From: Diadema setosum
Lineage: Eukaryota; Echinodermata; Echinoidea; Diadematoida; Diadematidae
DNA: 64,000 nucleotides
Assembly: GCF_964275005.1 (NCBI RefSeq)
Contig: NC_092701.1
Location: 33,544,520-33,608,519 of the forward strand
Reading direction: 5' to 3'
Positions 25,533 to 52,451 of this stretch are shown piece by piece (within the stretch, counting starts at the first letter, position 1; each line of letters starts with the position of its first letter). The position numbers were made by a program, and so were the translations under genes. The notes under the pieces were generated by a model. The model ran no database searches. It worked only from the letters and a program-made list of their open reading frames with translations, and had not been told where the DNA came from.

Positions 25533-26524
25533 ATGAGAAGGTGGAATTCACATCGTTTCGCTGTGTCGGTATATCTATTGTTTGCTCTGCTTCATGGCAA
25601 GATGCTTGTAGACGGCAGATGTGAGTTTCCGATTCCGATCAAGCCTACGTGTGATATATGTTTATACAAATATACATTGGCTCATACAATATACGATTAT
25701 AATTATACGGTGTGATTTTTCTAACTCTTCTTTTGTCTTTTTTCCAAGTTGAAAGGGAAATCCACCTCCAAAATCAATAAACTTCAAAAGAAAATGAAAA
25801 ACAACAAAACATTCCCTACAGAACGATACGAAAATGTCAAAAATCGGATAAGAAATAAGGAAGATATAACATTTCGGAATTTCACTTTTTTTTTTTTGCC
25901 CGGAAAACACTTCTTGACCAGTTGTTATGACTTTTCAAATCAGCAAGTTGACGATATCATGCTCTGAAACTTTCCTATTCACTTCGTTTACGGAAATGAC
26001 AAAAATCTCATATTTCAGCTTTTGGAATATAAAACTTGCCTAAAAACCACGGGAAATAAAAAAGAACAGATGTTAACTCTGATATATCTTGGTACGGGAA
26101 CATGCTTTTATTTGTATGAACTAAAAATAACACACTTCCGAATTTCATATAAAACATACATGAAAAGTTTTGATGGTAAAAAAGACATCGCTTATTTGAA
26201 TATTCATAAGCACTGGTCAAGAAATATTTTCCGAAAAAAAAGGTGAAATTTCAAACTGTGATATCTTCCTTATTTCTAATCCAATTTTTGTATCGTTCTG
26301 TAGGGAATATTTTCTCTTTCATTTAAAGCTTATTTAATTTTCGGGTGGATTTCCTCTTTAATCTGTCAGTGTGTTAAAAATCTTGTTCCGAGTTAAACTT
26401 CTAGGTGATTAGATATCAATTCGGAAATCAGATCAGACGATAGGCTTGAGAACGAAGGTCAAGAATACCTTACTTTCTTTATCAAGTATAAAATAAACTT
26501 ACGCACGCACACACACACACGCAC

Positions 26525-26582
<58 letters not shown>

Positions 26583-28727
26583 GCGTGTGTGTGTGTGTGC
26601 GTGTGCGTGTGTGTGTGTTCTACTTTTTTCTCCACGTTTTCAAGGAATCGGTATGCAAAGAAATTAGAAATTTCACAGGTAATGAGGCAATATGTGGATA
26701 ATCTGGAACGCTAGCTTAGAAAGCTATGCAGCCTGGTATTACTCTGGGGTCGGAGTACAGTCCAGTAGGCACAATTAATGCTTTCTCACTGGGTCCCACT
26801 CTATATTTAGCACCTTTGGAACATGTCAAAGTCACAGGTGTGTGATGTGCTTTACACCACAAGAAAGAGATTTTTCGCTTTCAAAATATATCTTTGTTGT
26901 TATATACTTTAGCGGAGAAGTTGTAGAATTTTATCTCTGACAAATGGCCAATTTTGGGAAAAAAGTTAACCCCAAATTGTAAAATCTGCTTTAAAAAGAT
27001 AAACATTAGGACTTCTACCATTCTAATTGTATTAGAATGACATCATAATATGAAATACTATAAACCCCATATTCTTGAAATATAATGTGTAATAGAAATT
27101 TTCTCCATATGTGCGTATTTTGTGTAATATTCCATATTCTAACGATATGTCACGCCGTTACGCGTCATGCCGTTACGTTATGAGAACATTTTTTTTTTTT
27201 TTTTTTTGGGGGGGGGGGGGGAATTTTAACTTCTTGTGTGGTTTTTGTGTAAAGCAGTTTTCAGTTCATTTTCATCATCATCTTCATTGATGAGCTATTT
27301 AGAGTTAATTACATCATCTCAGCGGTAGATTTTTTTCGTATATGATTTTGCGTGTGACATTTGTCCTCCATTGCAATTCAACAGAAAATTCTACATGGGC
27401 GTGACAGACGACCTATTTCATTTCACCTCATCAGACTTTTTAACCAATTACATTATAGTGCATCTTTTCCTTAACTCCAAACCCACTAAAAATCACTAGG
27501 TTGAAAACATCAAGTATTATGCCGATAACACTCAACTTTATCCACTTATTAGGGTAGGAAATAGTAATCTTTACCTATTCAAATGTCAGCCATATTGTTT
27601 ACAATATTTATGTGCATGTGATGTCATATTTTCAAAGTTTACTATACTTCATTGAAATTGAAATACCTGTAGATTTTTTAGCTTTAAAAAGTGTGTTAGT
27701 CGCATTGTCAAACTGACCTTTCAAAGTTAGATTTCAGCTGTTCAAGAAAAAAAAAAAGTGACATCAAATCTGTACACGTTGAACTGCACATGTTTTTTCC
27801 TACTTTTTTTTTTTTTGCTGTTAAAATTGAAAAAGAAAGTGATACTGATTTTCTTTTTTTCTTCAATGTGAATACTAACACAGTTGAATTGTAAAAATAT
27901 ATTACAGGGATTTAACTAGATAACTAATGTACAGAAATACTATTGATACCAAAAGTGAAAATGTTTCCATAAATCTATTTGAACTCTATGCATGGCATTA
28001 AATAGATTTTATTGAAACAGTATTTTGTAGATCATTTTCTTGCTATTGCTGTAAAACAGACGTTCGTTACAACGTTATATTATTGACGTTACAACATCGA
28101 TATTACAATGAAAATTTAGAGACACACTTACTGTACAGGTAGTTGCCACGGAAATAAACAAAAAGTTTATATAATAGCTTGTTTTGACAAAACAAATGTC
28201 AGCCGATACAATATGGAATTGCCCATATATTCATATATTACTGTGTGAACATATATCACTTCTTGTTTTCGTGTGAGTCGTTTTAGACCGATGTCAGGAT
28301 GGATGGAGGCAGTACAAAGATCGCTGCTATCTCCTGGTACTGAAGACTACATCACAGGCAAAAGCGAAGGAGCTCTGCTTACAAGAGGATGCGGCTTTAC
28401 CGGAGATCTTGTCGGAATTAGAGGCCAAGTTTGTCGCATCACTCCTGGAACCCGTCACCGTCACATCCACGAGAAGAGCCTGGCTTGATTGCTACAGGGA
28501 AGCTAGTGGCAGCAGTGTCTGGGTGTGTGGCGATGATCGACATCCGGCTCAATATCTCCGTAAGTAAGAAAAAAACAACAACAAAAAACAAAAAACAAAC
28601 AAACAAACAAACAAAGGCCACACTAAACAACGTTGTACTACCCTTTCTTTTCCTCCCGTTCCTGCCTCTTTCTCTTCTTTTTCTTTGGGAGGGGGGGGGG
28701 GGATAAAAAGGCGAAAGTATGTTTTTG

Positions 28728-28784
<57 letters not shown>

Positions 28785-30724
28785 CATGAATTATACATAT
28801 ACATATATGATCCCGATGAAATCCCATTTTCTTTGCTCAATTTCTCACTACTAAATCATATTCTTTTCTGGCCAATTTCCTTTTGTTTGCGTTTAGGCCT
28901 ATATGATATCCATACCCTTTGTTGTTGTAAGGAAATAGGTCTATTCTACATCATTAATCGAAATTATTGTATGCCTGTAGCTAAAGTTGTAAACCCAGAT
29001 AAATGTCGTTTACAATTCTTTTTTTTTTCATAAACGCTGCATGAAAATTGGCTCCACCTTGCAAGACTGAGGTAGCCAAGGAGGGTATAGCAGTGTATAG
29101 CATTTCTACCATCCTCTACCTAGCGAATGGAATGAATGCAACGCTGAAAGTCACTTAACCCTTTGTATGCTTCCAGTGCTGATTGGCACAGAAAATCCCT
29201 GGGTGTACAAGCTTCGTTGTCCACAGTATTCAATGTCGGCCCTGGCACAGAAAGGGGTTAAAGGGCCTGTACAGTACTGGTTGAGGTGGGGATTCATGTT
29301 TTGAACATTCCTAAGTGAGATAATGAGAAAACTCTTATGAAATATGAAAGAGCATGTAATTTTAAGAATGATTCAACGTTTATTTGATGAAACTTGGTTT
29401 TCAAATGGCTGAGATATCCAAAAAAGTGATAATAATAAAAGGCGACAGGCCACGTTTTTATTAGGATCTCTTTGTTTCACCTTGTTTTTAGATATCTGAG
29501 CCATTTCAAAACCGATTTTCATCAAGTAAACTTTTGATACCCCTTAGAATTGCATGCTCTTTGACATCTTATAGAGTGGTTTCTGAATATCTCGCAAAAC
29601 GTTAAAAGCTAAATCCTCACCTCGACCAGAACTGTACACACCCTTTAATGGTGACGACATGAGCATACATTATTGAAGTGATGTGCACTTAGTAACTATA
29701 ACTACAAACTTCTGCCTACATAGCTGTCAGATCTCTTATAAGGCATTGGATACATTGTGCATCCTTTATTAGCATAGAAAGGATTTTCCTTTTAATCAGA
29801 AACTGCCTTTGAGAGTTAATGATCAAAGCGCATTGTGTGATTCGATGACTCTATTGTTTGTCTCGCTGAGCATTACCTGAACTTCAGCAAGGCTGATTTG
29901 CTAAGTGTGTTCAGTTGATTCCCCCCCCCCCTTCATAGTTTGTTCGGCTATGAACTCATAAATAAATCTTATACGTTCATTATTGCCACGATATTCAGTC
30001 AGAGTCCATCGGAGGCCAGCTAGGCTTTGACATTATTTTCACTTATTCACGTGCAAGCCAAGGTAGTTAGTTTAACCTTCAATGGATCAATCAATTATTC
30101 AGTGAGAGGCGATGGTGGATCCATTATCGCCTCATTTTGTTTATATAACAATAGTATAAAACTCTGGAGAAAAGACAAGTAGTTCCATAGGGTGCTGCGT
30201 CTGAAGGTCACTCAAAAAACAAAGAAAATTAGAAAGTAATGAATACGGATCATTACGCGTGTGTCACTGCTTGCGCCGATTCGAACTGTCCATTTTCTGC
30301 TGTTGTAGTTGTTTGATGTATCAAGAACTACCAGTATTCTGGTGTTTAAAAATTTAGGAGATTGACATTCATAAAATATAAATATAAACAGATAAATAAA
30401 AGAGATGACCTCACCATAATCGAGGGCGCCTTTCAGGTTCTTCAATCGCTTTCCCCCCGTCCGTCATCCGTTTTCGCTTGTCGTCCGTATACTGTTTATT
30501 ATCATATAAACTTTAAATGACGTGGTCAGTTTCTCAAGCAAGCTCAAAAGAAAAAAAAAATAAGGAAAGATTCCAAGCTGGTAAAGCTAGATGACCTTAC
30601 GAAGGACTCAGGTTGGGCCTGCAAGGCAAGCGCGCCGGAACACTTCTGTTTTATTTATTTATTTTTTTAGTTATTTATTCTTATTCTTATTTTTATTTAT
30701 TTATTTATTTATTTATGTATGTAT

Positions 30725-30779
<55 letters not shown>

Positions 30780-30784
30780 TGTAG

Positions 30785-30815
<31 letters not shown>

Positions 30816-33800
30816 TGTATGTATGTATTTATTTATTTATTTATTTATTTATTTGTTTAATTTTTTTTTTTTGGGGGGGGGGCAAAATCTCGACGGGGGC
30901 ACATTTGTGACGATATGAGATCCTCGGCGAGGGTGTAGAAGGGGATACCCCCCCCCCCCCACGGGAGGGACCTTTTGTAAAACAGAGTACAAAAGTCGCT
31001 TTTCGAGCATTTAAAAGCAAATTACTATAAGGAATTACACATAGTGAAAAGAATCAGTGCGAAAGACTATGGTTATTACATACGGGGGCACATCAATGTG
31101 ACGGCGTGAGATCCTCGGCGAGGGAGGGTTTGAAAGGGGGGATATCCCCCTCTCACGGTAGGGACTTTTTGTAAAAACAGAGTACAATTGTCACGTTTTT
31201 AGAGCATTTAAAAGCAAATTTCTAGGGAATTAACACGTTGAAAAAATCTGTTAGAAAGACTATGATCAAAACATACGGGGGTACCTTTGTGACGGTGTGA
31301 GATCTTCGGCGAGGGAGCGAAGGGACCGAGCGGGGGAAGGTATGGGAGGGGGATACCCCTCTCCCATAGGGACATTTTGTAAAAACAGTATAAAAGTCGC
31401 ATTTATAGAGCATTTAAAAACAAATTTCTAGGGGGTTAAACATAGGGAAAAAATTCATTGCGAAGGACTATGATTACAACATATGGGCGTACATTATGTG
31501 ACGGTATGAGATCCTCGGCGAGGGAGCGAGGCGACCGAGCGGGGGAGGGTGTGGGAGGGGGATATCCCCCTCCCAGGGTAGGGACTTTTTGTAAAAACAG
31601 AGTATAAAAGTCGCGTTTATAGAGCATTTTAAATCAAATTTCTAGGGAATTAAAGATAAAAGAAATCACTGCGAAGGACTATGATCATATCTTATGAAAA
31701 CTATTCATTTTGCTTTAAGTACGGGCAGAGCTAGCGAGCCACTTTCACTTTGCCATTCGTCTGAAATGTATTCATTAAAAGCTTAAACTTGATCGCATTG
31801 TTCGAGCAATAAAAGATATTTCTATACTACTAGAAAGCAGAGAAGAAAAGGAAAAATGTAAGGCTTACTAAAGGTATGTTTCAGCGGGCACACTCGAGGA
31901 CGCAAGGCTACCATGTATCCACTAAATTTACTCAAGTTGATATTAGCGTATAGATACAATAATGTATATTGTTAGTGTATTATAATTTTCGCGGCGAAAA
32001 TTTCGCATTTTCAGTTATGAAATTGACAACTTTTAGACAAAAAATGTCTTTATTGTTCATTTTGGTCTTTAAATAATTGATTATTATTTTGTGAAGGGGG
32101 GGGGGCGCTTTTTTTTTGGGGGGGGGGGGCAAAAACTCGTTTCGCCCCCAACATTTTATTGGGGGGGGGGGGGGGGGGCAAGTGCCCCCCTCCTCGCCCC
32201 CCCCCCCCCCCGCTTCCGACGCCCTTGCTGAAAGGTATACATTGTGTGATAACAGGTTTCACTATTATAAGCGGCGAATGTTTGCGAATGTTTGGAATTA
32301 TGGGCTTCGTCAGGGCTCGTAAAATGTCGCAATAAAATAAGTTCTATTTCTAATATTTTATCTATAGGGTTAGCCTTCGTTTGGTCAATAGCTAGTTTTG
32401 CTTACATAATGTCTAAGCATATTACACATGTTTACATGAACGTTCTCATATCAAGGTTTGCATGGTTTTAATGGCTCTAACCATCTCTGTTAGTTCGCGG
32501 TGTCTTGGCTGAAGAAGTTCTTTTCAGGAGCACATTCATTCCAGAAAGGAAGAAGACTTGTGGAGCACCACGAACCACCTGAGCTGCAACATTTGTTGTT
32601 CTTAACAGATTACCGTGCTCTAACGCAGCAAAATATAATGAATGCTAGCTTCAAGCAATGACACGTAGTTAACATTAGTATGTAAGCTGAATATTTGTTA
32701 CCAAGGCCGTCGAGAAAATGAAATGTCTCCGTGGCCTAGCGGCTTGCAGTTGTCTTGTAAATGATGAACATTCTCCCCTTCCTCCCCCCCCCCCCCGTAG
32801 GTTGGATCAGCAATCAACCAAATAACGCTGGTGGAAACGAGGATTGCTCGGAGATATCACAGTTTGGGAAATTCAACGATTTAAGCTGCACTCACGAGAG
32901 AATTCCACTCTGTGTAAAACCTGGTAGGAGAAATACACGCACACACGCACGGACGCATGCACTTAAGCACAACATGCACGCTTGCTCGGTTATGTACCGT
33001 CGTTCATATGTATTTCCTGCTCTTCTCGGTTACAGTTCATTATTCCGAAGGTTTGTTATTCCGAAGGTTCTTTAGTCCGAAGGTTCGTTATTTCGAAGAC
33101 TCGTTATTCCGAAGGTTCGTTAATCCGAAAATGTGATAAGGTTTGTTATTCCGAAGGTTCATTAATCCGAAAATGAAACAAAGCTCGTTACGGACCCTAT
33201 TTCATTTTCGGATCAACGAACCTTCGGAATAACCGAGCCCTATTTCGTTTGCGGGTTAATGAAACTTCGGAATATCGAACCCTATTTCATTTTCGAATAA
33301 ACGAGCCTTCGGAATAGCTTCGGAATATTATATATTATTATTATTATTATTATTATATAACCCTATTTTATTTTCGGAGTAACGAACCTTCGGAATAACG
33401 AACCTTCGGAATAACGCCACAAATGTTCGGATTAACGAACCTTCGGCCTAACGAACAGCATCCATCTTCCCAGTTGGGTACAGCTCGTTATTCCGAAGGT
33501 TCGTTATTCCGAAGCCTCTTTATTCCTAAGATTCGTTATTGCGAAGGTTCATTGTTCCGCATTTCATTTTCGGATTGACCAATCTTCGGAATAACGAACC
33601 TTCGGAATAACGCCACAAATTTTCGGATTAACGAACCCTTTTTCATTAAATCGGATTAACGAACCTCTAGGTATAGGGAATTTGCATGTTTGGGATGAAC
33701 GACCCTTCGGAATAACGAACCTTCGGAATAGCGAACCTTCGGAATAACGAACAGCACCCCTCTGTATTACATTGCACAGGAATGAAATCAGTGCAACACT

Positions 33801-35869
33801 CCCATTAATTGAGTGGATTGATGGAACTATAGATATTTTTTTTTGCCAGTTGCAAATTGCACATATTTTAATTTCAAATGTGCTTGTTCTATTCCAGTCT
33901 GAGTACCCATGCCAATTGAGTTGGTTTTATGGCACGTTTTTATACGATTGTTCTTTTTAGTTTGATTTGCATGCATGTTAAGTTATTTATTGATTTATTA
34001 ATTTATTTATTTATTTATCATATACTATGTCGTGTTCACTCTCTGTGTATAATATATGTTTGTATATTGCATTTGTTATGCTTCGTCGTTATGTAAAAAA
34101 TATGTAAAAATCCCGCACTGAATTTCCTGTAATGTTTTTATTGGACGATTAAAATGAATTGAATTGAATTGAATTGGTGAGTTTCGGAGTATACATACTA
34201 TTCATGCAGGGGCGCACAAACTTGCACATCTCCTCGTCAATCAGTAAAGCAGCATCACGAGGCTTATAGATATTCATAAAAACAAAATCAAGGCTATCGA
34301 GCTGCTGGTGATATTTCCGTCCCAGCTATCGTGGACCTACTACACATGGATATTCATCTTTCGTTAATTAATTCGTGCACCTGTTTCTGTCAAAAACGTC
34401 AAAAAACATTTTGAACATGCTTTCCTGCTTTGATCCAGTGTTGTCCACCGACAGCCAGCTTGGATAAAAACAAGACGGCGCTTTGAGAAATCTAAAGACT
34501 ACATGGGCAGAAGACAATAACTCTCTTAAATAAAAAAAAAATGCATGTGCAGTTGTAGTGTATATTGGGAAATCATCGCTAAAGCAATTTCATTTGCGAA
34601 ATACAAGTGCTTACAAGAAAAAGCAAATAATTAGACAGGTTGACTGTGATTTGCAATCTATTTTTCTCTCTTTGTCGCACATTGTTAGAGTGAACACGGA
34701 CAGTAATAGTAGACGACATGCTTGTCTCGCCATTCAGGAACATTACGTGCGTGGCCACAAGTGTCCGCTTCAGTAATTACCAATTTTGTGACGCCAAATT
34801 TGTCCTTGTTTGAGGTTTGCTGCTCCCCATCATTGGTGTTTATTCAAAGGCAGTTGAGTCTGAAAAGGCACCTCAGCCAAATATGACCGATACATATGAG
34901 GGAAACGGTTCTTTTGTCAGTGGCGATGCACGATTACACAACCGTCATTGTCCAAACGTCTGAATGTACTCATTAAGATGCACAGAATCAGGTGGCTGTG
35001 GTGAACACTGGATCAAAGAAAGACCTCCGTTCATAGTCCATATGTGTAGTAGGTCCATGATAATATCGATAATCATTCCTATCAAATCTACCAAGCACAA
35101 AATAGGCCTAATGATCTCATATGACTTACTCTTCCTACCCCTCTACTCCTCTCTCTCTCTCATCGTTACTAGGCCTTTGTCACTAAATAATTGATGGTGG
35201 CAAACATGATTTTCTTGCACTATGAACCAGTTCACATTTCCAATCTGAGCATGTACAGATAAAGGTCATTTGGGACCTTCTCTTGAAATGGATTTGCAAC
35301 TGAGATATTCAAAACCTAGATAGGGCTTCATGATAACTGTGTTATAAACGAATAAGGTGCAACACGCAGATTGGTATTTACAGGTGAATGTGCATTCTTT
35401 TCAGCAACATTTATCCAAAACCATTCATGCAGTACTGGCATGTAAATTCCCACTTCCTGCATGATTGTTTTCAAGTGCTCTTCTTGAAGACTATTCCATG
35501 TTTTACAAAGTCTATGGTTTGAGAGGTCATTGTGTGAACTGTGAACTGACTTAATAAGGAGATGAGGGTACAAAGTGCTTGAAAAGACCCCATTTTAACA
35601 ATAATGTCTCTGTTTTGACAGCTCGCATTCGAGGATTCCTCGTTCGGCGGATGCTGTCACCTCATCAAGGTGTTTGTCTACCTGACCACGTGATCGAAAG
35701 CATCCAATCATCTTCGCGGATTAGATGTGTCGCTGCATGTCTAGCTATGCCAGAGTGCGTGTCCATGAACATACATCCAATGGATGGAACATGTCAGCTG
35801 AACAACGCCACCAGAACTTCAGCACTTTCAGCTGAACCGTCTGGAAACTGTGAATATTTAGAGCTTTGA
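25533..35869 (+). CDS. Secreted C-type lectin with PAN/apple domain, copy 1 (four exons, 243 aa)
   Basis: Exons are 25533-25620, 28287-28559, 32801-32923 and 35622-35869, all GT-AG and all phase 1. Exon 1 gives a signal peptide with core VSVYLLFALLHG. Exons 2 and 3 form a long-form C-type lectin domain: CQDGWRQYKDRCYLL at the start, the first canonical half-cystine in ELCLQEDAA, an extra Cys pair in DCYR and WVCGDD, then QPNN, a FND tripeptide where WND is usual, and SC and LC as the last cysteines. QPN sits where EPN or QPD sets sugar specificity in known Ca2+-dependent lectins. Exon 4 is a PAN/apple-like module with GVC, RCVAACL, ECVSMN, TCQLNN and NCEYLEL. The protein ends four residues before its sister copies. 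The introns total 9.6 kb and are full of repeats. It is likely an extracellular glycan-recognition protein; the ligand is unknown. Confidence 0.85.
25749..26361. mobile_element. Inverted-repeat MITE in intron 1 of lectin copy 1
   Basis: The left end GAAAGGGAAATCCACC matches the inverted right end GGTGGATTTCCTCTTTAA. Arms also share CCCTACAGAACGATAC and AAATAAGGAAGATAT. No coding capacity. Confidence 0.65.
26503..26617. repeat. (AC)n (AT)n (GT)n compound microsatellite
   Basis: The CA, TA and TG runs are arranged so that the whole tract is itself nearly palindromic. Confidence 0.95.
26620..28286. other. Intron 1 of lectin copy 1, remaining part
   Basis: AT-rich intron sequence with a poly-T/poly-G tract at about 27190-27222. 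No further element was recognised. Confidence 0.4.
28730..28780. repeat. (AT)n microsatellite
   Basis: About 25 AT units in intron 2 of lectin copy 1. Confidence 0.95.
29258..29648. mobile_element. TTAA-ended MITE, family A, intact copy
   Basis: Ends are TTAAAGGGCCTGTACAGTAC and its inverse (ACTGTACACACCCTTTAA). Arms share GATAATGAGAAA, GAGATATCCAAAAA and TTTATTTGATGAAA words with the copies at 37016 and 42231. Length 391 bases, no coding capacity. Confidence 0.8.
30653..30857. repeat. (TTTA)n microsatellite
   Basis: About 50 TTTA units with rare variants. Both long frames over it are repeat translations. Confidence 0.95.
30885..31690. repeat. Four-unit tandem satellite, period about 190-215 bases
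   Basis: Each unit contains GAGATCCTCGGCGAGGG (or GAGATCTTCGGCGAGGG), a CCCC-rich inverted centre, GGGAC followed by TTTTGTAAAA, then AAAGTCGC-type words and GAGCATTT. Units start near 30890, 31084, 31275 and 31490. It follows directly on the (TTTA)n and poly-G tract in intron 2 of lectin copy 1. Confidence 0.8.
32090..32222. repeat. Poly-G/poly-C rich hairpin-forming tracts
   Basis: Several G runs of more than ten bases are followed by C runs, able to pair with one another. Confidence 0.8.
33040..33765. repeat. Palindromic array of CGTTATTCCGAAGGTT-type words
   Basis: GTTCGTTATTCCGAAGG and its inverse alternate many times, broken by TTTCATTTTCGGATTAACGAAC-like spacers and a (TTA)n tract at about 33335-33355. 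It lies in intron 3 of lectin copy 1. Related sequence occurs at 5480-5715, 39220-39480, 40060-40550, 41880-42060 and 42925-42975. Confidence 0.8.
33960..34176 (+). mobile_element. LINE 3' UTR fragment with (TTGAA)n tail
   Basis: The tail AATTGAATTGAATTGAATTG at 34156-34175 has the same form as the tail of the LINE at 53745-54622. The sequence before it is a non-coding 3' UTR-like stretch. The 5' limit is uncertain. Confidence 0.5.
34180..35621. other. Intron 3 of lectin copy 1, remaining part
   Basis: No gene or clear element was recognised. Small open frames lack resemblance to known domains. Confidence 0.45.
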
Positions 35870-38679: not shown

Positions 38680-39018
38680 TATATCCCTCCACTGATGGTG
38701 GTTCACACTATTCGAAAACAGCGTCTCCTGTGTACTGTAGTCGCTAGGTTATTTAATTAAAATTTACCTCACAATGACCAAATTGATTTGCAGTCCGAGT
38801 GGCGGGTGTTTACTTTCATGATGAACGTGTAATTGACATTGATCAATCATCAGCCAGATTTCATCAGGGGACTGCACGATTTGTTTGACATGGAGACATG
38901 GCAGACTTGAATGTCTTCGTTCGTCTCTCATTCACCTTCAAAGTGAAGAATGGGAGAGGAAGTGTTACCTTTGAAACCTTACCACAATTGAGACCGGATT
39001 TCCACAGACAGGAGGAAG
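38680..39018 (+). promoter_or_regulatory. Upstream region of lectin copy 2
   Basis: It shares block order with copies 1 and 3: CTCCACTGATGGTGGTTCAC, AAACAGCGTC, TTGATTTGCAGTCCGA, TTGATCAATCATCAG and TTCAAAGTGAAGAATGG. AGAGGAAGTG, a full PU.1-type ETS word, lies at 38955-38964, 55 bases before the ATG. Confidence 0.55.
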
Positions 39019-40978
39019 ATGAGGACGCGGAAATTATATGGTTTCGTCGTTTCGATATATTTATTGCTTGCTCTTCTTGATGGCAAGGTGCGGGTAGAAA
39101 GCGTAGGTGAGTTCCATTCCGATTAGGCCTACATAGCTACTAGGCCTACCCATTTGGTGCAATGTATGTTTATATGTATTCCAGGATTTGGGGGAAATTT
39201 TGTCATTTTGCCTGGCCGGTCAATTAATTCCAAAGGACTATTTCGAAGTTTCGTAATTCCGAAAATATAGCAGGGTCTGTTGTTCCTAAGGTTTGTTGAT
39301 CTGAAAATGGAATAACGTTCGACATAGTCCGAAACTAAAAAAGGGTTTCTTATTTCAAAGAAAGGTTGATCTGCAAGAAAATGAAATAAGGTTAGTTCTT
39401 TCGAAGATCCGTAAATTAGAAAATGAGACAGGGTTCTTAATTCCGACATTCCTATGGTTCGTTGGTCCGAAGATGAAATAAGATTTATAATTACAAAAGT
39501 GAATTACTCTTCTTCAAGTGTTGCAATTAAAACAAAAATGTTATGAACTGCACAATAAAAGATGAATAAAAACATGTACACACATGACTGCACGTCTCAG
39601 TCAAGCTTTTCATAGCTTATTACGATCCACACAGGACCTATATGGCATATTCTATGTACAAACTGTGTGTATATTTTTGTATAAGGCATCTATAATATAT
39701 GCATTTTGTAAATAAACTTAACACCAAAACACACGGTATATACGATATTTGGTGGACTGGAATACAGTCAATGTAATCACATTATTGATGATAAAAGAAG
39801 TAGGGCCTAGAGGTATTTTCTGCTCCGCAGTAGTAAACACACCCTTCATCCTGTGCATTATCATTACTATGAGCCATGCATGATGTAGAAATAAATATTG
39901 TAAGAGCCCTCTAAACTACTCATACATGCGTGTACTCATCTGCTTTGGAAGAATCCTGCCTACGTCGCTGGTAATAATGGATCAGCCCTTACCACCCTCT
40001 TTACTACTCGACACGAACGGAGATCCCCGTCGCCCCCCCCCCCCCCCCCGATTCCTCACAGATTCCCTTTTCGGATTAACTAAAATTGTTTCATTTTCGA
40101 ACTATTGAACCTTATTTCATTTTCGGACTAACGAAACATATTTCATTATGCAATTGTTTACGGGTTAACCAACCTTCGGAACATTAAAACGAACCTTATT
40201 TGTGATATTCGAAGTAAGAAACGAATTTTTAAAACAAAGAACCCTATGTCACTCCTGAATTAACAAACCCTTGGAATAGCGAACCTTATTTCATTTTCAG
40301 ACTATGGAATCTGTGTGAAGTAATAAACCTTATTTCGTTTCCGGATAAACGAATCCTCTTTTTTTTCAGATTTACGAACCTGATTCCATTTTCGGTACAC
40401 CGAACCTCTAAAATACCAAATCTTACTTCATTTTCGGATTAAAGACAGTTTGGAATAACGAACTCTATTTCATTTCCGGTCTAAAGTATATCAAGCTATA
40501 CGGAATGTATATGTTCCTGTATGACAAATCTTCGGGATAATGAACATCGTATGTGTTCCAGGCGTACTGTATTTTCTTTTTTCGCAGTTGTCACTTTCGT
40601 ACATCCAAAATGTGTATAAGATTTAAACTCCTTGGTAACAAGATATTACTTGGCTAAGTTACGAAGACAAAGACGTATATTCGCCCTATGGACCTTTATA
40701 TATATAAAATGTATGTACATGTATATATATATATGAAGTGTTTGTTCGCAAAAACCGGTAAGTCCATATTTGCCAAATGGAGATATTTGCGATTAAAGGT
40801 CAAGAAAAATAAAGAAAATAATAAGAAATTTTTGGCTTCTTTTGACCATAACTTTAAAAATGTACCTTTATATGTAGTGACCAATATATCATTTAAAAGG
40901 TATTATTCTGTACTTTATGACAGAGACGGTACTTCAAAATCTTCAAAAATGGACTTATCGGTTTTTGCAAACAAACTC

Positions 40979-41015
<37 letters not shown>

Positions 41016-43959
41016 TCTCTCTCTCTCTTTTGGGTTGTGGTTAAGAACCATGTCAGGACGGATGGAGGCAGTTCACGGATCGCTGCTATCTCCTGGTGCA
41101 GAAGACTACGTCACAGGCAAAAGCAAAGGAGATCTGTCTGGAGGTGGATGCGGCTGTACCGGAAATCTTGTCGGAGTTCGAGAGCGAGTTCGTCGCATCA
41201 CTCCTGGAACCCGTCACCTTCACGTCCGGGAGAAAAGCCTGGATTGATTGCTATCGAGCGGAGAGTGGTAGCAAGGACTGGGTGTGTGGCGATGATCGAC
41301 ATCCGGCTCAGTATCTCCGTAAGTGAAAAAAAAATGCCGACATTAAACGCCATGAATACCTCTAAACCTCATTCCTCACACCTCCCCCCGTTCCTACCTT
41401 TTCTATTCTCTGGATCCCAGAGTGAGTATACAAATACGTACATACATACAATATCTATGAACCTATGCTAATATCAAACTGTTCTTACTATGTTATTATA
41501 GGCCTATATATAAGACTATGGCAGATGTCGCCAGTCACCAAATGATAACACATCAAAATTGTATAGGGTCCAGAAGATAGAGAGAGTGAAAAAAAAAATC
41601 CGCAAAATATCCCACTAACGATTACATTTACAATAACAATAGAAGTACTATGAATGGAAATAAGACCTATAATGAAGTTCTGTTGTGTATTTATGTCATC
41701 TTTAATAACATGTAGGGACCTTTCTGTTTTGAGTGTTTTCTATAAAAGTCCCTCTTTAGCCTCGGCATATAATATGCAGTACTGTAAAACCTGTCTATAG
41801 CGGCCACCTAAGGGAGATGAAACTAGTACCCGTTATAGACACGTAATGAACCATCCAAATAGCAATACTTAAAAACTCATTTTCGAAACATCGAACATTC
41901 AGAATAACGAAACTTACATGTATTTTATTTTGGAATTAAAAACCTTCTGGAAAACCACCAGAAATGCGCGCTTTAGCGAACCCATGATTAAGGAATATTG
42001 GTTCAAGGAATTGCAAGTTTCGGAATAACGAACCTTCGAAATAACGAACATTACTCTCGTAAAACGAACAACATTCTTATCCCTTTTCTTTTCGAAGCTT
42101 GGGGTGGTGGTCAACCTGATAACACTGGTGGAGTCGAGGATTGCTCAGAGATATTGCATTCTGGGAAATTCAACGATGTACGCTGCACACAGAAGAGAAT
42201 TCCTCTCTGCGTTAAACCTGGTGAGAAATCTAAAGGGATGGTACAGTTGCCGCTGTGATGGGGTTCGAAGTGTTTCCAACTTTTTTTTAATTTTTTTTTC
42301 AGATAATGAGAAACCTCCTATGAAATATGAAATAGCATATGAAGAGTTTGTTCGCAAAAACCGATGTCCATTTTTGAAGATTTTGAAGTACGGTCTCTGT
42401 CATAAAGTACAATATAATACCTTTTAAATGATATATTGGTCACTACATACAAAGGTACATTTTTGAAGTTATGGTCAAAAGAAGCAAACTTTTTTTATTA
42501 TTCTCTTTATTTTTCTTGACCTTTAATCGCAAATTCAATCCATTTGGCAAATATGGACTTATCGGTTTTTGCAAACAAACTCTTCATATAATTCTAAGAG
42601 GAATTCAAAGTTTATTTGATGAAAATTAGTTTTGAAATGACTTAGATATCCAAAACAAGCGATCCTGATAAAAAGTGGCACCCACCTTTTATTAGGCTCA
42701 CTTTGTTTTACTTTGTTTTTGGATAACTCAGCCATTTCAAGACCGATTTTCATCAACAACAAAAAACAAAACAAAACATCGAATGCCTCTTAGAATTGTA
42801 TGCTATGTCATATTTCATAAAGTCATTTCTAAGTATCTCGCCAAAAATTAAAGTGTGAATCATCACCTCAATGAATTGTTCAGTGCATGATTAGCCATCT
42901 ACTTGTTCTTCTAACTCTTTTCCTGAAGGTTTGTAATTCCAAAATAAAATGAGTTTCGTTATTCCGAAGGTTCGATGAACTTGCTCCTAGGGCAATTGCT
43001 CCGGTCTTATTTCCTCCAAGGGCTTATAGGGTTAGGGTTAGGGTTAGGGTTAGGGTTAGGGTTGGGGTTGTGATAGTTTAGTTTGATGTGAGGATTAGGA
43101 TTAGTTGTGGGTAGGTTTTATGTTTGGCTTAGCACATTATGTAGCACGCAGATATTTCATGGGACAACTGCCTCAGGTGCAAATGTCATGGAACCTTTTC
43201 CAATATTACTGCCGTGAAATACAATAGTTGCTAAATTGCGATTATTGCAAATTGCAAATTTATGGAAACAAGTTGCACTCTCATATAAAATCTTAGACAT
43301 GCAAGACGTGCTGTTTGTTTCCAATCCGAACAATGTGATACAAGTTGATATATGATTTTCAGAGTATTGCTGGGGAAAATAAATCTCAGATCACATCGAC
43401 AAAAGTAAGGCAATAGCATAAGGCTGAGACGTTAATAAGATTGATGACAACAGTCAATGTGATCGTACTGCTGGCGATTTATTAGCCCCAGGTATATTTA
43501 CAATGACAATATCGATATAATTCCTATAAAATTTCTATCTTTGATCTCACTATGATATGACTTTATTCTTACTTTCTCTCCCTGTCTCTGCCTCTCTTTA
43601 TTAGTATAAGTGCTGCCTAAAAATGGCTCTCAAGCACTATCGAGTAAATGCGTGTGCAAGGTGCCTGAAAAGATCCATTCATTGTCTATATTTTGACAGC
43701 TCGCATCCGAAGATTCCTCATTCGGCGGATACTGTCACCTAATCAAGGTGTATGTATAGCTGACCACGTGATCGGAAGCATCCAATCATCCTCGCGGATT
43801 AGATGTGTCGCTGCATGTCTTGCTACACCACAGTGCGTATCCATTAACATTCATCCAATGGATAGAACATGTCAGCTGAACAACGCCACCAGAACTTCAT
43901 CCCTTTCAGCAAAACCGTCTGGAAACTGTGAATATTTAGAGCTCTTGACGAACTTGTGA
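39019..43959 (+). CDS. Secreted C-type lectin with PAN/apple domain, copy 2 (four exons, 247 aa)
   Basis: Exons are 39019-39106, 41046-41318, 42098-42220 and 43700-43959, with the same lengths as copy 1 except the last. The signal peptide core is VVSIYLLLALLDG. The lectin domain starts CQDGWRQFTDRCYLL. The sugar-site loop on exon 3 reads GGQPDNTGG, the QPD triplet tied to galactose-type binding in vertebrate lectins, followed by EDC, FND and LC. The PAN/apple-like exon has the same cysteines as copy 1 and ends CEYLELLTNL. Exon 3 lies only ten bases from a family A MITE. The 5' splice sites GTGAG, GTAAG and GTGAG are strong. The reading is open throughout and looks functional; sugar specificity is inference from the motif. 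Confidence 0.87.
39220..40550. repeat. Decayed palindromic TTCGGAATAACGAAC repeats in intron 1 of copy 2
   Basis: Related words occur in one orientation at 39220-39480 and in the opposite one at 40060-40550, with about 580 bases of other intron sequence between, so they may be two ends of one element. Confidence 0.5.
40731..40986. mobile_element. MITE with GTTTGTTCGCAAAAACCG ends, copy 1
   Basis: The left end GTTTGTTCGCAAAAACCGGT matches the inverted right end CGGTTTTTGCAAACAAACTC. AT repeats flank both sides, so the target was probably TA-rich. The same element, inverted, is nested at 42338-42592. Confidence 0.8.
40981..41013. repeat. (AT)n microsatellite
   Basis: About 16 AT units just upstream of exon 2 of lectin copy 2. 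Confidence 0.9.
41775..42060. repeat. Mixed remnant: pogo-like end and palindromic TTCGGAATAACGAAC repeat
   Basis: AGTACTGTAAAACCTGTCTATAGCGG looks like a decayed pogo-type end, described here only by its first bases CTGTAAAACC. From 41880 on GAATAACGAA words follow up to exon 3 of copy 2. Confidence 0.4.
42231..42890. mobile_element. MITE family A, third copy, interrupted
   Basis: It starts TAAAGGGATGGTACAG ten bases after exon 3 of lectin copy 2 and shares GATAATGAGAAACCTC, GATATCCAAAACAAG and TCTCGCCAAAAATTAAA with the other copies. The element at 42338-42592 is inserted in it. The right end is worn. Confidence 0.65.
42338..42592. mobile_element. MITE with GTTTGTTCGCAAAAACCG ends, copy 2 (nested)
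   Basis: It is an inverted copy of 40731-40986, with ends GAGTTTGTTCGCAAAAACCG and CGGTTTTTGCAAACAAACTC. It sits inside the family A element, so it jumped later. Confidence 0.8.
43026..43070. repeat. Interstitial telomere-like (TTAGGG)n
   Basis: Six to seven GGGTTA units end in GGGGTTG variants. CAATTGCTCC before and CAACTGCCTC after suggest it belongs to a dispersed repeat rather than a chromosome end. Confidence 0.9.
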
Positions 43960-44216
43960 TTTACGACTAATCAACAACTACGGTGAACGATTCTCTGTCG
44001 GTTATGTGTGAATCTGTACATAGGCATTCGACTCGTTTTAATCGAATAACACGAAAACGTAGGCCGTGAGGAGGCAACGCTTTACGGAGCTCACCAAGAA
44101 GCCTTGGTTTGGGACGAGTAAGAGTCTTCACACGATGCTTTCTTGTCCTGTCCTACACACGGTGCCTTGGCAAGTTTCAGCAGTAAAAATTCTTGTTGCA
44201 CGTTAAAGGGAAGTGT

Positions 44217-44477
44217 AAGGCGCGGTCAGACTGGCAAAAGATAATTATTGGTACGCTCGCAAGCAAGAGTGCGCCGTCTGATGGCTAGTGATTGTGACGT
44301 AACAATGCACATGTGTACATGACAATGGCCTCGCGCTTCGTAGGCACCGCCCGCAAACAGATCGAGAAGTTTCGCGGGAAGTTTCGCGGGAAGTTTGCGG
44401 TCACACTGGCAAAACTTCGAGATCTTAAAGATCGCGATCTTAAACTTCGCGATCTTTTGCCAATCTGACCGCGCCTT
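44217..44477. mobile_element. GC-rich MITE with AAGGCGCGGTCAGACTGGC ends
   Basis: The left end AAGGCGCGGTCAGACTGGC is inverted at the right end (GCCAATCTGACCGCGCCTT). The centre is rich in TCGCGGGAAGTT and GATCTTAAA repeats. The minus-strand frame with repeated Arg-Ser is only this repeat. Confidence 0.8.
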
Positions 44478-44924
44478 AAATGTACTTTTGGATTAAGTGA
44501 ATGTTCCAATATTAGTAGAATATATCAGTGTAGAAATTGAGAAAATCGTACAGTCTGTTCAAAAGTTATAGATTTTTTTTTTTTTTTTTTTTTTTAAAGT
44601 GTCGGTAACGAGACGGCTGGATCAGAAAAATACTACAAACCATGACATCACATATGCACTATACGATATAACGAAAATATAAAGAAAATTCAACATTTCG
44701 TCACTTTCCAGCGTGATGAAAGAGCAATAGGCTTGTCTCTGTCAGAAAGCAGGGGAATAATAACACCCTTAACATGTCAGTAACGACTTCAGGAAATGTG
44801 TATTTTTTCTGCCTTTTTCTTCCTAGTAATGCATAAAATGACATCATGACCTGTAGCAGTCTTCTGAACCAATGGTCTCGTCACCAAAATTTCAGATATA
44901 CATAACTTTTGAACGGAGTGTCCG

Positions 44925-45785
44925 CTTTTTCATTCATTCATTTTATTTAACCACGGTACTAACATCAGCCACGGCTGTTTTTCAGTCAGTCCGTGCAATA
45001 AAAACAAGTATGCATAACGTGATTCATCATCATCATAGATACAAAGCAAATAAAAACTACATAAAACTACACAAATCCATTAACATAACATCGTAGGCAA
45101 GACACAAAACAGGCAAGACTATCAAATTACAAAACAAAATAACATTTCATTAAAATCATATATATCTTAAAATAATTGATTAAATAATTACTTGATTAAT
45201 AAAACAATAGAATAAGATAAAACACAAAATTTCCGAAATAATATCTAACACACACGAAAAACACATTTAAGACTATTGATAACAGATTGCTGTAAAACGA
45301 ACACTGCACATCCCCTCTAACTACCCTAACCTACGCGTACACACACACACACACACACACAACTGCAACCCACCCGCCCCTGCATATAAATTCAAAACAA
45401 ACTCTTTAATAAAATAAAACATATAATCACAAATATTATCTGGACATTAAAAATTCCTTTGCTCTAACTAAAACACTTTCATCCTCATTTACTCGCCTTT
45501 TGAACTCACCCCAATTTGCTACCTTAATATCATCTCTCAAATTATTCCACAGTTTTGTCCCATAATAAGAAATACTCCTTCGTTTCAACTCCGTGCGAAT
45601 CGGCGGTAATATAAAATTCTTTATCGTTTGTCTTAGACTGTAATTATAACTCTTAAAAACAAAATGACGTCGCAAACATAAAGGCACTAAAGCATGAACT
45701 ACTTTATACATAAAACAAAAAACACGTTTAATCTTTCGATCTTGTAATCTATCTAATTTCCTCAAACTTTCACTTTTCCTCAAAC
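44925..45785 (-). mobile_element. 5'-truncated LINE with reverse transcriptase C-terminus
   Basis: The minus-strand frame at 45436-45783 contains KIKRVFCFMYKVVHALVP and RSISYYGTKLWNNLRDD, the usual C-terminal wording of CR1/L2/Rex-type LINEs. A 3' UTR with an (AC)n tract at 45342-45361 and an ATGAATGAATG tail (44930-44942) follow. Confidence 0.7.
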
Positions 45786-46208
45786 TTTCACTGGTGTATT
45801 CTACTATATAATATTGTCACACTCAATTTAAATGCATATTTATTTTTGTTTCATTCCCCGTCATGTAGAGCACAATGATTTCCGTCCGATAGCATTAACA
45901 TCTGATATGAAACGGGCCCCGTCGGAATGAATTTTGATGGGTACGGTTACAGTGCCGTATCATAGACGAATAAAGATACAAAATAAAGAATACAAAATTA
46001 AAAGCAGCTTTTTCAGTAATGCCATCTTCTTGTAAATTACAACCAATTGCTCCACGATGCGTTTATAGCTATGGTATAATTTATAAGGGACACAATATAC
46101 TGCAATTTTCATGAAATCATTGGATAGAGAATACAAGTAGAACTCATCAGTAAATCTGTTTAATTCGTAATCCCTAAACCCCCTCCCAAAAACAAATATT
46201 TGATATAT

Positions 46209-46264: not shown

Positions 46265-46624
46265 TATTAATACTGTACAAGTATTTGCAAATCTGAGACA
46301 GTCATACACAACATCTTCTAAAACGTGATGCCAAGTCAAAGGGATCAGATGCAAATTCAGCAACGTACAGGTGTGTGATAACTTCGTAACCGAGATGACC
46401 AATGACATAATATGACCAAAATATAGGACAAGCTTCATGTGCTAATCATACATTTGAGTAAATCGAAATAGAAGGAATTTCTCCTGGATTCGACTTTAAT
46501 AGGCAAGGTTGACTGCAACTGTGTTTGATCATGTTTGAGACTGAGTACGAATGACATTCCTTATACAAGCTTATGCTTATATTTGAACAATGTTTATCAA
46601 GACTAGTTATACTGGAAGTAGTAG

Positions 46625-46626
<2 letters not shown>

Positions 46627-46660
<34 letters not shown>
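46627..46660. repeat. (GA)n microsatellite
   Basis: About 16 GA units. Confidence 0.9.
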
Positions 46661-46661
<1 letters not shown>

Positions 46662-46884
46662 TCTAAAAACAGATCTCCAGCAGGTATTATTATTCCAACC
46701 CCACCCACCCAAACCAAGATTCATGACTGTTTTGTAATTAGGATGGTGTTTGATTAAGACTGATTGATGAAGGGAGTATATTTCGCTATGCACTTCAAAT
46801 TATTACGTTGGGAAAAACAAATCCCCATGGAATGTGGCGTGCTGTTGGTATAAATGTGCTGTGTGTATGTGTGTGTCTCTATTT

Positions 46885-47945: not shown

Positions 47946-48019
47946 AACAGACATTGAGTAATAATTTACAGTAGTCCCTTAAAGTCTTTAAATGCACGCA
48001 TGCAGTATTCAAACAGACT

Positions 48020-48366
48020 CCCCGAGCCGTCCACCGATGGCGGTTCATACTACACAGTGTATTCCGAAAACAGCGTCGCCTTTTAAATCGGGTTATTGTT
48101 TCGAATTTGCTAACACAATGACTAGATTGATTTGCAGTCCGACAGAGGGATGTTTACCTTCCTAATGAACACGTAATTGATATCGACCAATCATCAGTTG
48201 ATTTCAGGAGGGAATTGCCTGCATTAAATTGTGTGACAAGGTAAAAATGCAGACTTAAATGCCTTTGTTTGTCTCATTCGCCCTAAAATTGAAGTATGAG
48301 AGAGGAAGTATTACCGCTGAAACCTTAACGAGAACTAAGGCTGAAATTTCTACAGAGAGGCAGAAG
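48020..48366 (+). promoter_or_regulatory. Upstream region of lectin copy 3
   Basis: Shared blocks are GTCCACCGATGGCGGTTCAT, AAACAGCGTCGCC, TTGATTTGCAGTCCGA, CGACCAATCATCAG and TTGAAGTATGAG. AGAGGAAGT lies at 48301-48309, 57 bases before the ATG. Confidence 0.55.
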
Positions 48367-51300
48367 ATGAGGACGTGGAATTTCCATCGTTTCGGCGCGT
48401 TTTTATATACATTAGCTCTACTCAATGGCAAGATGGGTGTAGAAGGCGTAGGTGAGTTTCATTCTAATTAGGCCTATAGACATAATCCATGTGAATTACC
48501 TACAACATACATGCCGACAGGGTATGTTTTTACATGTTCGTGATGTCAGGTTTGGAGAATTTCTATCATCGTACCTTTGGACTTCTGGCCATTATTGTGT
48601 TCCAGCGGTACATTTTTTTCCCCGTCTTTTTGCCGGGTTTCCAAGATCTCGCTAATTACTCAAATATCAAAGTTATCTGGCCCAGGTGGGACCTATATGG
48701 GTTTAATGTAATGTCGCACGTTTGCAAAATCAACATTCGATCCATTGGCTACACCCACTTATAGAACCATAATGAAACCATATGGGTCCTAAATCAGAGA
48801 CATTATTAGGGCAATTTTAAGATTTTATGTCGTAGGTGATAATGACGTAGGTCTATAGGTCTATCAGATGGTAATGTAAGATAATAAATATTACAGTACA
48901 GCTCTTCATATAATGGAAATTGGGAATGGAAAGATTTGTTTTGAGAACATTGCACTTTTGTGATTTTCTTTTAGTGATTCCCTTATCGAGGCTATTGTGT
49001 TCAGTGATGTTTTGATTTGCATATTAACAAAGATCTGAACAAAACATCGAAATTAAGTCTAAATCATAAAGACTTCGGGGCATTTTTTATAACATTCAGA
49101 GATATATTATATGAATGTTATTCCGCTATATCCACTCCCCCCCCCCTCTCTCTCTCTCTCTACCCACTTTTTTTGGGTTGTGGTTAAGATCTATGCCAGG
49201 ACGGATGGAGGGAATACAAAGATCGCTGCTATCTCCTGGTGCAGGAGAAAACGACGCAGGAAGAAGCGACGGAGATCTGTCTAGAGGCGGATGCAGCTGT
49301 CCCGATAATATCGTCGGAGTTAGAGGCCAAGTTTGTCGCATCACTCCTGGACCCCGTCACCTTCACGCCCACGAGAAAAGCCTGGCTTGATTGCTACCGA
49401 GCAGAGAGTGGTAGCAAGGATTGGGTGTGTGGCGGTGATCGGCATCCGGCACCGTATATCCGTAAGTGGAAAACGGGCCGCCTCCAGCTTCACCTCCTTT
49501 AAACCTCCCCCTTCTCAGCTCTCTTCCTCCCCTTTAATTTCCTTGGATACCAGCGAGATAATAATCCCGCACCCCAAACACACACCCACGTGTGCATGTG
49601 TAGATATACATGTCTATTCAGTTGTAATGATGCACATGTGATACATGATGGTAAAGGATGTCGCAGGAGGCAATATCTTTTTTTTTTAAGTTTGTGACTT
49701 TCTTTTTTTTTTTTACTTCCTCAGCTTTGTCTGAACGAACTGTGACAGATGGAGTAGGCCTATAATAAAGAACAGCGGTGCATGTGAAAGGAATCCAAAA
49801 CAGTAGAAGTTTTTGAGCGAGATTTTGCAATGAAAATACCTAAAAACATTACAAAAAAAAAATGTCAACCAGTTGACGTCCGGATAATAAAGAATCCGGA
49901 TAATCGATGGCCGGATAATCAAGATTCTACTGTACAGTGAAACCCCGTTATGATGAGGTCCGTGGGTCCGCCGATATTGCCTCGTTATTACCGGTTCCTC
50001 GTTTATAATATAAACGTACGCACTAAAAACAAAGAAAAACATAAGCATGGAATTACATACCAAGCAATCAAACTTATGAGCAGTCTTTGCGTTGTTATTA
50101 GACAAGTAAATGGATCCATATTATTGAGAAAGAATAAAAAGGAATCATTTGTGAATTAATACGAAAAGAACAGAAAAAATAGCGGTTGAAAACGCGTTCT
50201 TTGTTTTTCTTCCGAAAATCTCTTCGCGTGTGTTGTACATGCGTTCTTGAAAAGTGCACGGGAGGGTTGAATTTGTGATCTTTCCTATCTCTTCCTCGTG
50301 TATTGAACCATTCTGAAAGAATGAAAATATTGTTTGTGAAATACAGTATAAAATTTTAATAAACAAAATCACACTGTACTATATGCGATTGTTACTTTTT
50401 TTCTGACCATGAACGCAAGCAGACTAACATGCAATTTTCAATTTATTTTACGCTGTGTGCACCTAGCAGGATCGCGATGATCTCATGAATTATTTAAGCT
50501 GTATTCCATGTTGTTTGCACCAGCAGGGGTTGATAATGCGTTTTTTATTTTTCTCCCCAAAATCTCTTCGCATTTTGTACATGCGTTCTTCAAAGGCACA
50601 CGACATGGTTGAATTCGTGATCCTTTGTACACCTATCTCTTCCTCATTATAACGGACCATTCTGAAAGAATTAGATTTTTCATTTGTGAAATACAGTGTG
50701 AAATAGTAATGAACATCACGATGATTTCATTAATTATTTCGGCTGTAATCTTTCACGTAGTAGACACGTCAATGTTTCCTAACCAGCAAAACAATTGGAA
50801 GTCGGAACTAACATGGAAAGGATTATGATAAGCTGCATATGCATTCCAAAAACATATTTTCCATGTTCTGCCATCAGCTTGTTTCATTGGATGGAACGTT
50901 TTTGAATGAACATTTTTTTTTCACGTTACAAACTTGTTTGAGCTAATATCAAATAGGCCTATGCGTATCTCGAAAAAAATCAAATGATTATGTTCAAAGA
51001 CTGAAGAACATCGGACGGTATCCGTGTGTCTTATCGCGTGGTTTATAAGAAAACATGCAAAGAACGGTACTCGGCATTTGTCACCGATAATGGAGGATTA
51101 AAGAGGTAAAAGTAAAAACAAAGGGATAAAGTGACATTATCTTCAAATGTGTGTGATATGTATGGCCGATGTGTGTGTGTGTGTGTGTGTGTGTAGGCCT
51201 ACTATCATACTCGGGCTCATTAGACGAATAGTACTAATACTGAAGAGGCTACCTGGCTAAAGAAGACCATACCATTGTCTAACCTGGGCAAATAGACTGC

Positions 51301-51593
51301 GTACATGTTTAGAAGGCTTTCTAAACAACAAGAACAAGAAGAACAAGAACAAGAACAAGAACAAGAACAAGAACAACTACAACAACAACAACAACAAAAA
51401 CTCCCCAACAATAAACATAACCTCCCTTTTCTTCTTTTTTTAAATATATTATATTTATAGACTGGAGTGACAATCAGCCAGATGACTGGCATGGAGTCGA
51501 GGACTGCTTGGAGATATTGTATTCTGGGAAGTTCAACGATCTACGCTGCACTGAGACAAGAATTCCTGTGTGCGTAAAACCTGGTGAGAAATT

Positions 51594-51660
<67 letters not shown>

Positions 51661-52451
51661 GAACACGCACTATTGCGCATTAGCCTTACTGTTCTTCCCA
51701 ATCTGTGTCCGATATCATCGCAGTATTATAATCGCAGTAATCACTATGGCATTTCGTTTAATATTGACCATTGAATGAAAACAATTTTTTTTTTTCGGTG
51801 CAAGCTATCAGATATACTGGTCTACTCTGATCATAACAGCCTTTTGTGATTTTCAGAGTATTCTAGCATGGGGTAAACAATCTCACGTTATCGATCCACG
51901 TTGATTAGGAAAACAACAACACGGTGCCGAGATATTCATAAAGAATAGCATGCCAGCTACCAAGGTAATCTTCCTGATGATAGTTTGTCTCCATCTATAT
52001 CACTTATATGAAATGTGCATAACGATATACACTGTATAGTGATCTTGCATGAGTATGCTCTTTCCCTCTCTTTCTCTTTCAATATTCATTTGTAAATGCT
52101 GGCAAAATTGTGGGGTTTTGTTTATTTTGCATGAACAAATGAGGGTTAAAGGTAATTGAAAAGACCGTACTTATTTTCTCTGTTTCGTCAGCTCGCATGC
52201 GAAAATTCCTCTTTCGCCGGATACCGTCACCTAATCAAGACTTTTGTCTACCGGACCACGTGATCGGAAGCATCCAATCATCCTCGCGGATTAGATGCGT
52301 TGCTGCATGTCTCGCTACTCCAGAGTGTGTGTCCATGAACATACTGCCAATGGATGGAACGTGTCAGCTGAACAACGCCACCAGAACTCCAACAATTTCA
52401 GCTGGACCGTCTGGAAATTGTGAATATTTAGAGCTTTTGACGAACTTGTGA
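48367..52451 (+). CDS. Secreted C-type lectin with PAN/apple domain, copy 3 (four exons, 246 aa)
   Basis: Exons are 48367-48451, 49189-49461, 51461-51583 and 52192-52451. The signal peptide is one residue shorter (core FGAFLYTLALLNG). The lectin half-domain on exon 2 starts CQDGWREYKDRCYLL and differs most from the others in the PIISSELEA and DRHPAPYI regions. Exon 3 reads SDNQPDDWHGVEDC, a QPD loop with a WH insertion-like change where copies 1 and 2 have Gly-rich residues; FND, RC and VC follow. The PAN/apple-like exon keeps all six cysteines and ends LELLTNL. Exon 3 is followed within ten bases by a long (AAC)n tract. It is the most compact of the three genes at 4.1 kb. Confidence 0.87.
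49861..49932. mobile_element. pogo/Tigger-like element end
   Basis: The right end, inverted, reads CAGTAGAATCTTGATTATCC, a typical pogo-type terminus. GGCCGGATAATC and CCGGATAATAA words repeat inside. It abuts another element across a single TA. Confidence 0.55.
49935..50376. mobile_element. Second pogo/Tigger-like element
   Basis: It starts CAGTGAAACCCCGTTATGAT just after a TA and may end CACTG at 50372-50376, also followed by TA. Inverted similarity between the ends is short, so the right limit is tentative. No transposase remains. Confidence 0.45.
50188..50716 (+). repeat. Two direct copies of a roughly 180-base unit
   Basis: AAATCTCTTCGC, GTACATGCGTTCTT, CCTATCTCTTCCTC, CCATTCTGAAAGAAT and TTTGTGAAATACAGT occur in the same order at 50188-50370 and 50534-50716. 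It lies in intron 2 of lectin copy 3. Confidence 0.7.
51329..51400. repeat. (AAC/AAG)n trinucleotide repeat
   Basis: GAACAA and CAACAA units run for about 70 bases, just upstream of exon 3 of copy 3. Confidence 0.9.
51594..51661. repeat. (AAC)n trinucleotide repeat
   Basis: About 22 AAC units begin ten bases after exon 3 of lectin copy 3. Confidence 0.95.

Follow-up and report, generated by a model that had tools for sequence, protein, structure and literature searches.

A tandem array of three putative C-type lectin genes with a C-terminal PAN-like domain in the sea urchin Diadema setosum

A window of 64,000 nucleotides (the whole stretch of DNA that was analysed) from the sea urchin Diadema setosum (NCBI RefSeq assembly GCF_964275005.1, contig NC_092701.1, positions 33,544,520 to 33,608,519 of the forward strand; coordinates below count from the first base of the window) contains three intact four-exon genes in the same, forward direction (copies 1–3; 25533-35869, 39019-43959, and 48367-52451; Table 1). 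These genes very probably form a tandem array of secreted C-type lectins that carry a PAN-like domain at the C terminus, expressed separately from one another and each with its exons in a fixed order. Secretion, sugar binding, and the separate expression of three lectins are properties that we infer from the sequence.

The gene models were placed by eye on the sequence and then checked by joining the exons and translating the product. All nine introns run from GT to AG and are in phase 1, and the joined frames are open from the ATG to a single terminal stop, encoding 243, 247, and 246 amino acids in copies 1, 2, and 3, respectively, with the stop of copy 1 four codons earlier than in the other two. 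Introns measure 2666, 4241, and 2698 bases in copy 1, 1939, 779, and 1479 bases in copy 2, and 737, 1999, and 608 bases in copy 3, and the genes stand head to tail with stop-to-start gaps of 3149 bases (copy 1 to copy 2) and 4407 bases (copy 2 to copy 3). The splicing pattern is predicted from splice-site consensus, open frames, conservation between the copies, and family matches. On these points the original prediction for the locus, which had placed the array at exactly 25533-52451 with phase-1 introns throughout, symmetric exons 2 and 3 of 273 and 123 bases in all three copies, and a QPN/QPD loop with FND on exon 3, is borne out by the joined and translated exons.

Each predicted protein consists of a hydrophobic leader (best ten-residue mean hydrophobicity, 1.9 to 2.8 across the three copies), a C-type lectin domain, and a PAN-like domain. 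The Lectin_C family (PF00059; Pfam curated cut-off, 22.6 bits) matched the whole lectin domain above its cut-off in every copy (55.8, 49.7, and 43.8 bits), and a comparison of copy 3 with solved structures returned 97 distinct matching sequences (expect value, E ≤ 0.01), with a scavenger receptor with C-type lectin and the asialoglycoprotein receptor among the matches listed. Every copy has five cysteines in exon 2 and three in exon 3, the exon 2 cysteines in DCYR and WVCG being presumably extra to the usual set of the domain. The PAN_1 family (PF00024; Pfam curated cut-off, 21.4 bits) was matched above its cut-off in two of the three copies (copies 1 and 2; Table 1). Across all pairs of copies, the ratio of nonsynonymous to synonymous substitution rates (dN/dS) of exons 2–4 ranged from 0.27 to 0.46, values consistent with purifying constraint. 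Two viral C-type-lectin-like Pfam families (UL45 in copies 2 and 3; A33R in copy 3) were also returned below their cut-offs and were set aside as reflections of the common fold.

The putative sugar site lies on exon 3, which starts just ahead of the Trp preceding the loop and ends past the last cysteine of the fold. A full set of calcium and sugar ligands (Q/E, N/D, E, N, D), at the positions usual for the family, was read in all three copies, and the site residues of copy 3 (Q, D, E, N, and D) match the same residues of the lectin 2ox9 in alignment. In characterised lectins, EPN occurs in almost all binders of mannose and N-acetylglucosamine and QPD in binders of galactose and N-acetylgalactosamine (PMC6422238, partial text). 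The three loops, each followed by FND, differ from one another (Table 1), copy 3 carrying QPDDW, the galactose-type QPD with Asp-Trp after it, and copy 2 carrying QPD without the Trp. The form with Asp-Trp after QPD is that of the asialoglycoprotein receptor, and in mutant studies of mannose-binding protein the Trp is reported to raise galactose affinity. Positions that vary among the copies make up 32 of the 89 in the part encoded by exon 2, 18 of the 41 in that of exon 3, and 20 of the 80 in that of exon 4. We considered and rejected the idea that the loop is specially diversified: the densest stretches of variation (10 of 15 positions variable) fall at the loop, but shuffling matches this maximum in 40.5% of 5000 trials, and the dN/dS of exon 3 (0.30–0.38) is not above that of exons 2 and 4 (0.27–0.46).

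In all pairs of copies, similarity extends over some 240 to 340 bases ahead of the ATG, and pairwise alignments of the upstream region plus exon 1 gave identities of 66.8, 66.9, and 72.9% over 473, 390, and 465 columns, respectively. The promoter was therefore probably duplicated with each gene. Each gene has an upstream region and a stop of its own, as would be expected of three separate transcription units, and the hexamer AATAAA follows the stop at +174 in copy 1 and at +93 in copy 3.

Several observations weigh against parts of this reading. Since the loop of copy 1 is a hybrid, QPN, that is neither of the standard motifs, sugar binding by copy 1 is uncertain. The PAN_1 score of copy 3 (20.4 bits) falls one bit under the cut-off; a profile of exon 4 from all three copies, compared with solved structures at E ≤ 1, found two chains of microneme proteins with non-significant values (E = 0.41 and 0.95), chains that presumably hold PAN/apple domains; and fold models of exon 4 were of low confidence (mean predicted local distance difference test score of 47.6 alone and 56.8 with the three-copy alignment). 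A PAN identity is likely for the exon 4 domain. The leader exon has a dN/dS of 0.67 to 0.82. Past the stop of copy 2, neither AATAAA nor ATTAAA occurs within 1,000 bases (43959-44997), a stretch with AATAAC at +86 and AGTAAA at +223, so that the case for a 3′ end of its own is weaker in this copy.

The frame is kept by every combination of exons, and 72 of the 81 four-exon combinations are open; the nine broken ones all pair exon 1 of copy 1 with exon 2 of copy 2, where a stop arises at the split codon 30 because the former ends in T and the latter begins with AA. The skipping of exon 3 and the joining of exon 2 to exon 3 of another copy, both of which the original prediction had expected to stay in frame, left open frames in all cases. 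For its label of exon 3 as a cassette, and for the further copies that it proposed to look for next to the locus, the window gave no counterpart: neither an alternative exon nor an additional copy turned up there. A tblastn search of the window with 12 exon peptides (E ≤ 1), which could miss badly decayed copies, returned only the three expected places for each exon, all else having E ≥ 0.15, and three chance-level rows contain stops. Within each gene every exon was found in a single version, whereas a mutually exclusive exon system of the Dscam type has at least two alternatives for an exon within a gene. Sites at which one copy is the odd one out (copy 1:2:3) are distributed as 25:15:25 in exon 2 and 15:8:17 in exon 3 (p = 0.90), suggesting that, as far as 105 sites tell, the two exons have one common history; the test is blind to a joint exchange of exons 2 and 3 and to exchange long past. 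Exchange between exons 2 and 3 of different copies is unsupported because both exons show the same relationship between the copies. The earlier interpretation is supported in part: its frame arithmetic stands, apart from the one exon 1/exon 2 junction that it had not foreseen, and the exon mixing that it suggested is unsupported by the sequence.

Combinatorial recognition, in which read-through or trans-splicing would join exon 2 and exon 3 across copies into chimeric lectin domains, is rated as highly improbable. An upstream region and a leader exon have been retained in every gene. A stop arises at one exon 1/exon 2 junction out of nine, so that the array has not been kept clean for free mixing, and a transcript joining exon 2 to the exon 3 of a later copy must span 10 to 23 kb while bypassing the exon 3 of the first. 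The pointers in the sequence to splicing between copies are restricted to the open exon 2/exon 3 junctions, in an array that is head to tail, and to the polyadenylation hexamer missing from copy 2. Because this copy has no canonical hexamer within 1 kb, read-through into copy 3 is conceivable and would be the easiest route to chimeric lectin domains and a small combinatorial set of secreted proteins, an outcome to which we give very little credence; the missing hexamer is the best remaining argument for it, and a weak one because variant signals are common. It is very unlikely, too, that exon 3 is a true cassette whose skipping would yield a secreted PAN-bearing protein without a lectin, or an inactive decoy. 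The frame stays open in all three copies without exon 2, without exon 3, and without either, and the exon 3 donor of copy 1 (gtagga) is off the usual consensus, but skipping exon 3 removes the sugar and calcium ligands and three of the eight cysteines of the lectin domain. The last of these cysteines should pair with one in exon 2, and since the latter would lose its partner, the product would most likely misfold. A partial parallel is human CLEC4F, for which the last exon of the carbohydrate-recognition domain (CRD) is not spliced in and the gene reportedly encodes no functional receptor (PMC6422238, partial text); there the unspliced exon is terminal and the sugar site is reported to carry a missense change as well, whereas exon 3 here is internal. 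The early end of copy 1 might also be read as a sign that one or more copies are dying pseudogenes, though with no internal stop in any of the three, GT/AG ends on all introns, and dN/dS well below 1 outside the leader, such decay is scarcely probable.

Gene conversion or unequal crossing-over between the copies, with the exon 4 (PAN) block and not exon 3 as its target, is possible and on balance doubtful. In the upstream region plus exon 1, the odd copy is most often copy 1 (46:27:29), but this is not so in the block formed by the end of intron 3, exon 4, and the 3′ flank (13:24:27), and this block differs from all sequence from the upstream region to exon 3 (86:50:71; p = 0.0065), as does the upstream region plus exon 1 from exon 4 (p = 0.011). 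Copy 1 also shows fewer synonymous differences from copies 2 and 3 in exon 4 than in exons 2 and 3 (p = 0.023 and 0.010, respectively). The partition p values are uncorrected and come from five partitions in all, picked post hoc and including the comparison of exon 2 with exon 3 given above, of which exons 2 and 3 versus exon 4 gave p = 0.062 and the upstream region plus exon 1 versus exons 2 and 3 gave p = 0.21. A search over all breakpoints (2000 permutations) placed the best break at the final informative site in exon 3 (p = 0.086); synonymous differences between copies 2 and 3 do not drop in exon 4 (p = 0.58), and the lower divergence of exon 4 could come from constraint. If exchange happened here, these counts weakly suggest that it moved the PAN exon and not the sugar loop. 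A possible substrate is the 16-base repeat TTCGGAATAACGAACC, the 18-base form of which, taken in both orientations, has 35 matches in the window at ≤3 mismatches (0.08 expected), 34 of them in the introns of copy 1 (n = 23) and copy 2 (n = 11) and none in copy 3. The repeat lies 109 bases past exon 3 in copy 1 and 46 bases ahead of it in copy 2. Repeats of this kind can promote unequal exchange, and the exon comparison holds no sign of it around exon 3.

The layout of the exons is mostly ordinary in kind and like that of known lectin genes. Because the copies are paralogues, their nine introns are three introns duplicated rather than nine independent ones, and any argument from chance therefore rests on three events. 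Two of the three positions are borders of the leader or of extracellular modules, at which phase 1 is expected; the third, inside the lectin domain, is the only free observation for phase. Phase-1 introns at both module borders, as found here, define modular extracellular genes of class 1-1, which comprises all domain types in animal exon shuffling, with an excess of phase-1 introns near signal-peptide cleavage sites (PMC8001218, partial text). The genes resemble such modules in having phase-1 introns at leader/module and module/module borders and differ in an extra phase-1 intron within the lectin module, which leaves half of the fold symmetric too (PMC8001218, partial text); neither lectin nor PAN/apple modules are named there, the words lectin and apple being absent and "pan" occurring twice, both times in references. 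In vertebrate CLEC4F, of the asialoglycoprotein-receptor type, three exons make up the CRD, and QPD stands close to the beginning of the third (PMC6422238, partial text), and a sugar motif on a separate exon is therefore not new. Unlike the genes here, which consist of a leader, a PAN-like exon, and two exons for the lectin domain, CLEC4F has three CRD exons and encodes a membrane protein with a neck; the available text of PMC6422238 mentions no PAN domain for CLEC4F. Soluble fish C-type lectins and antifreeze proteins likewise have introns within the lectin domain, one of them downstream of WIGL, along with further intron positions, all described there by position without phases (PMC514892, partial text). 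The Sp185/333 (SpTransformer) genes of sea urchins are also small clustered genes of one family, with about 50 estimated members and repeats in the second of two exons, compared to three lectin genes here (PMC5491942, partial text). Narrow literature searches found no paper on a C-type lectin combined with a PAN domain in a sea cucumber or sea urchin, and the combination may already be described; a PAN module is named in the abbreviation list of the rhamnose-binding lectin section of one paper (PMC3269628, partial text).

Table 1. Features of the lectin array, in window coordinates
Feature	Position	Strand	Length (bases)	Description
Copy 1 upstream region	25214-25532	+		Probable promoter and 5′ untranslated region; alike 38686-39018 of copy 2
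Copy 1 upstream region, part	from 25293 on	+		Alike 48108-48366 of copy 3
Copy 1 exon 1	25533-25620	+	88	ATG; probable signal peptide (hydrophobic leader); phase 1 at its end
Copy 1 exon 2	28287-28559	+	273	
Copy 1 exon 3	32801-32923	+	123	C-terminal part of lectin domain; QPNNAGGNEDC loop, FND
Copy 1 exon 4	35622-35869	+	248	PAN-like domain and stop; PAN_1 26.3 bits
Copy 2 exon 1	39019-39106	+	88	ATG and leader
Copy 2 exon 2	41046-41318	+	273	
Copy 2 exon 3	42098-42220	+	123	QPDNTGGVEDC loop, FND
Copy 2 exon 4	43700-43959	+	260	PAN-like domain and stop; PAN_1 24.7 bits
Copy 3 exon 1	48367-48451	+	85	ATG and leader, shorter by one codon
Copy 3 exon 2	49189-49461	+	273	
Copy 3 exon 3	51461-51583	+	123	QPDDWHGVEDC loop, FND
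Copy 3 exon 4	52192-52451	+	260	PAN-like domain and stop; PAN_1 20.4 bits
TTCGGAATAACGAACC repeat	33032-33755, 39246-40466, 41898-42052, 42926-42968	both		

Other features were observed in the introns and around the array. Intron 2 of copy 1 holds a tandem array of 2.6 copies of a 209-base unit (31137-31687), and intron 3 of copy 2 holds about seven telomere-like TTAGGG units (43027-43069). An open reading frame at 60372-60746 (reverse strand) has a weak caspase-domain match (Peptidase_C14, 15.5 bits, under its cut-off of 21.4 bits), and a frame of 910 amino acids at 11280-14012 (forward strand), with no Pfam match at E ≤ 1, may be a large coding exon belonging to a different gene. Three further open reading frames (45436-45816 and 21655-22242, reverse strand; 53719-53970, forward strand) had no Pfam match at E ≤ 0.1 and look like the ends of retrotransposon reverse transcriptases. 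Searches for RNA families and transfer RNAs, the latter with the bacterial code, found none in the window.

Under the reading of three separate lectin genes, whole genes would have been duplicated along with their upstream regions, and every copy probably has a promoter of its own and joins its exons in the order 1-2-3-4. The lectin domain probably binds glycans via calcium at the site encoded by exon 3, and contact with proteins is the probable role of the PAN-like domain. Diversity would come from divergence of the sugar sites after duplication (QPN, QPD, and QPDDW), and the phase-1 exon borders would be inherited from the building of animal extracellular modules. Splicing between copies, if true, would be an unusual route to a wider set of animal lectins. 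With three forms of the sugar-site exon on a similar scaffold in one small lectin array, the locus would be useful for tests of how galactose specificity is acquired stepwise.

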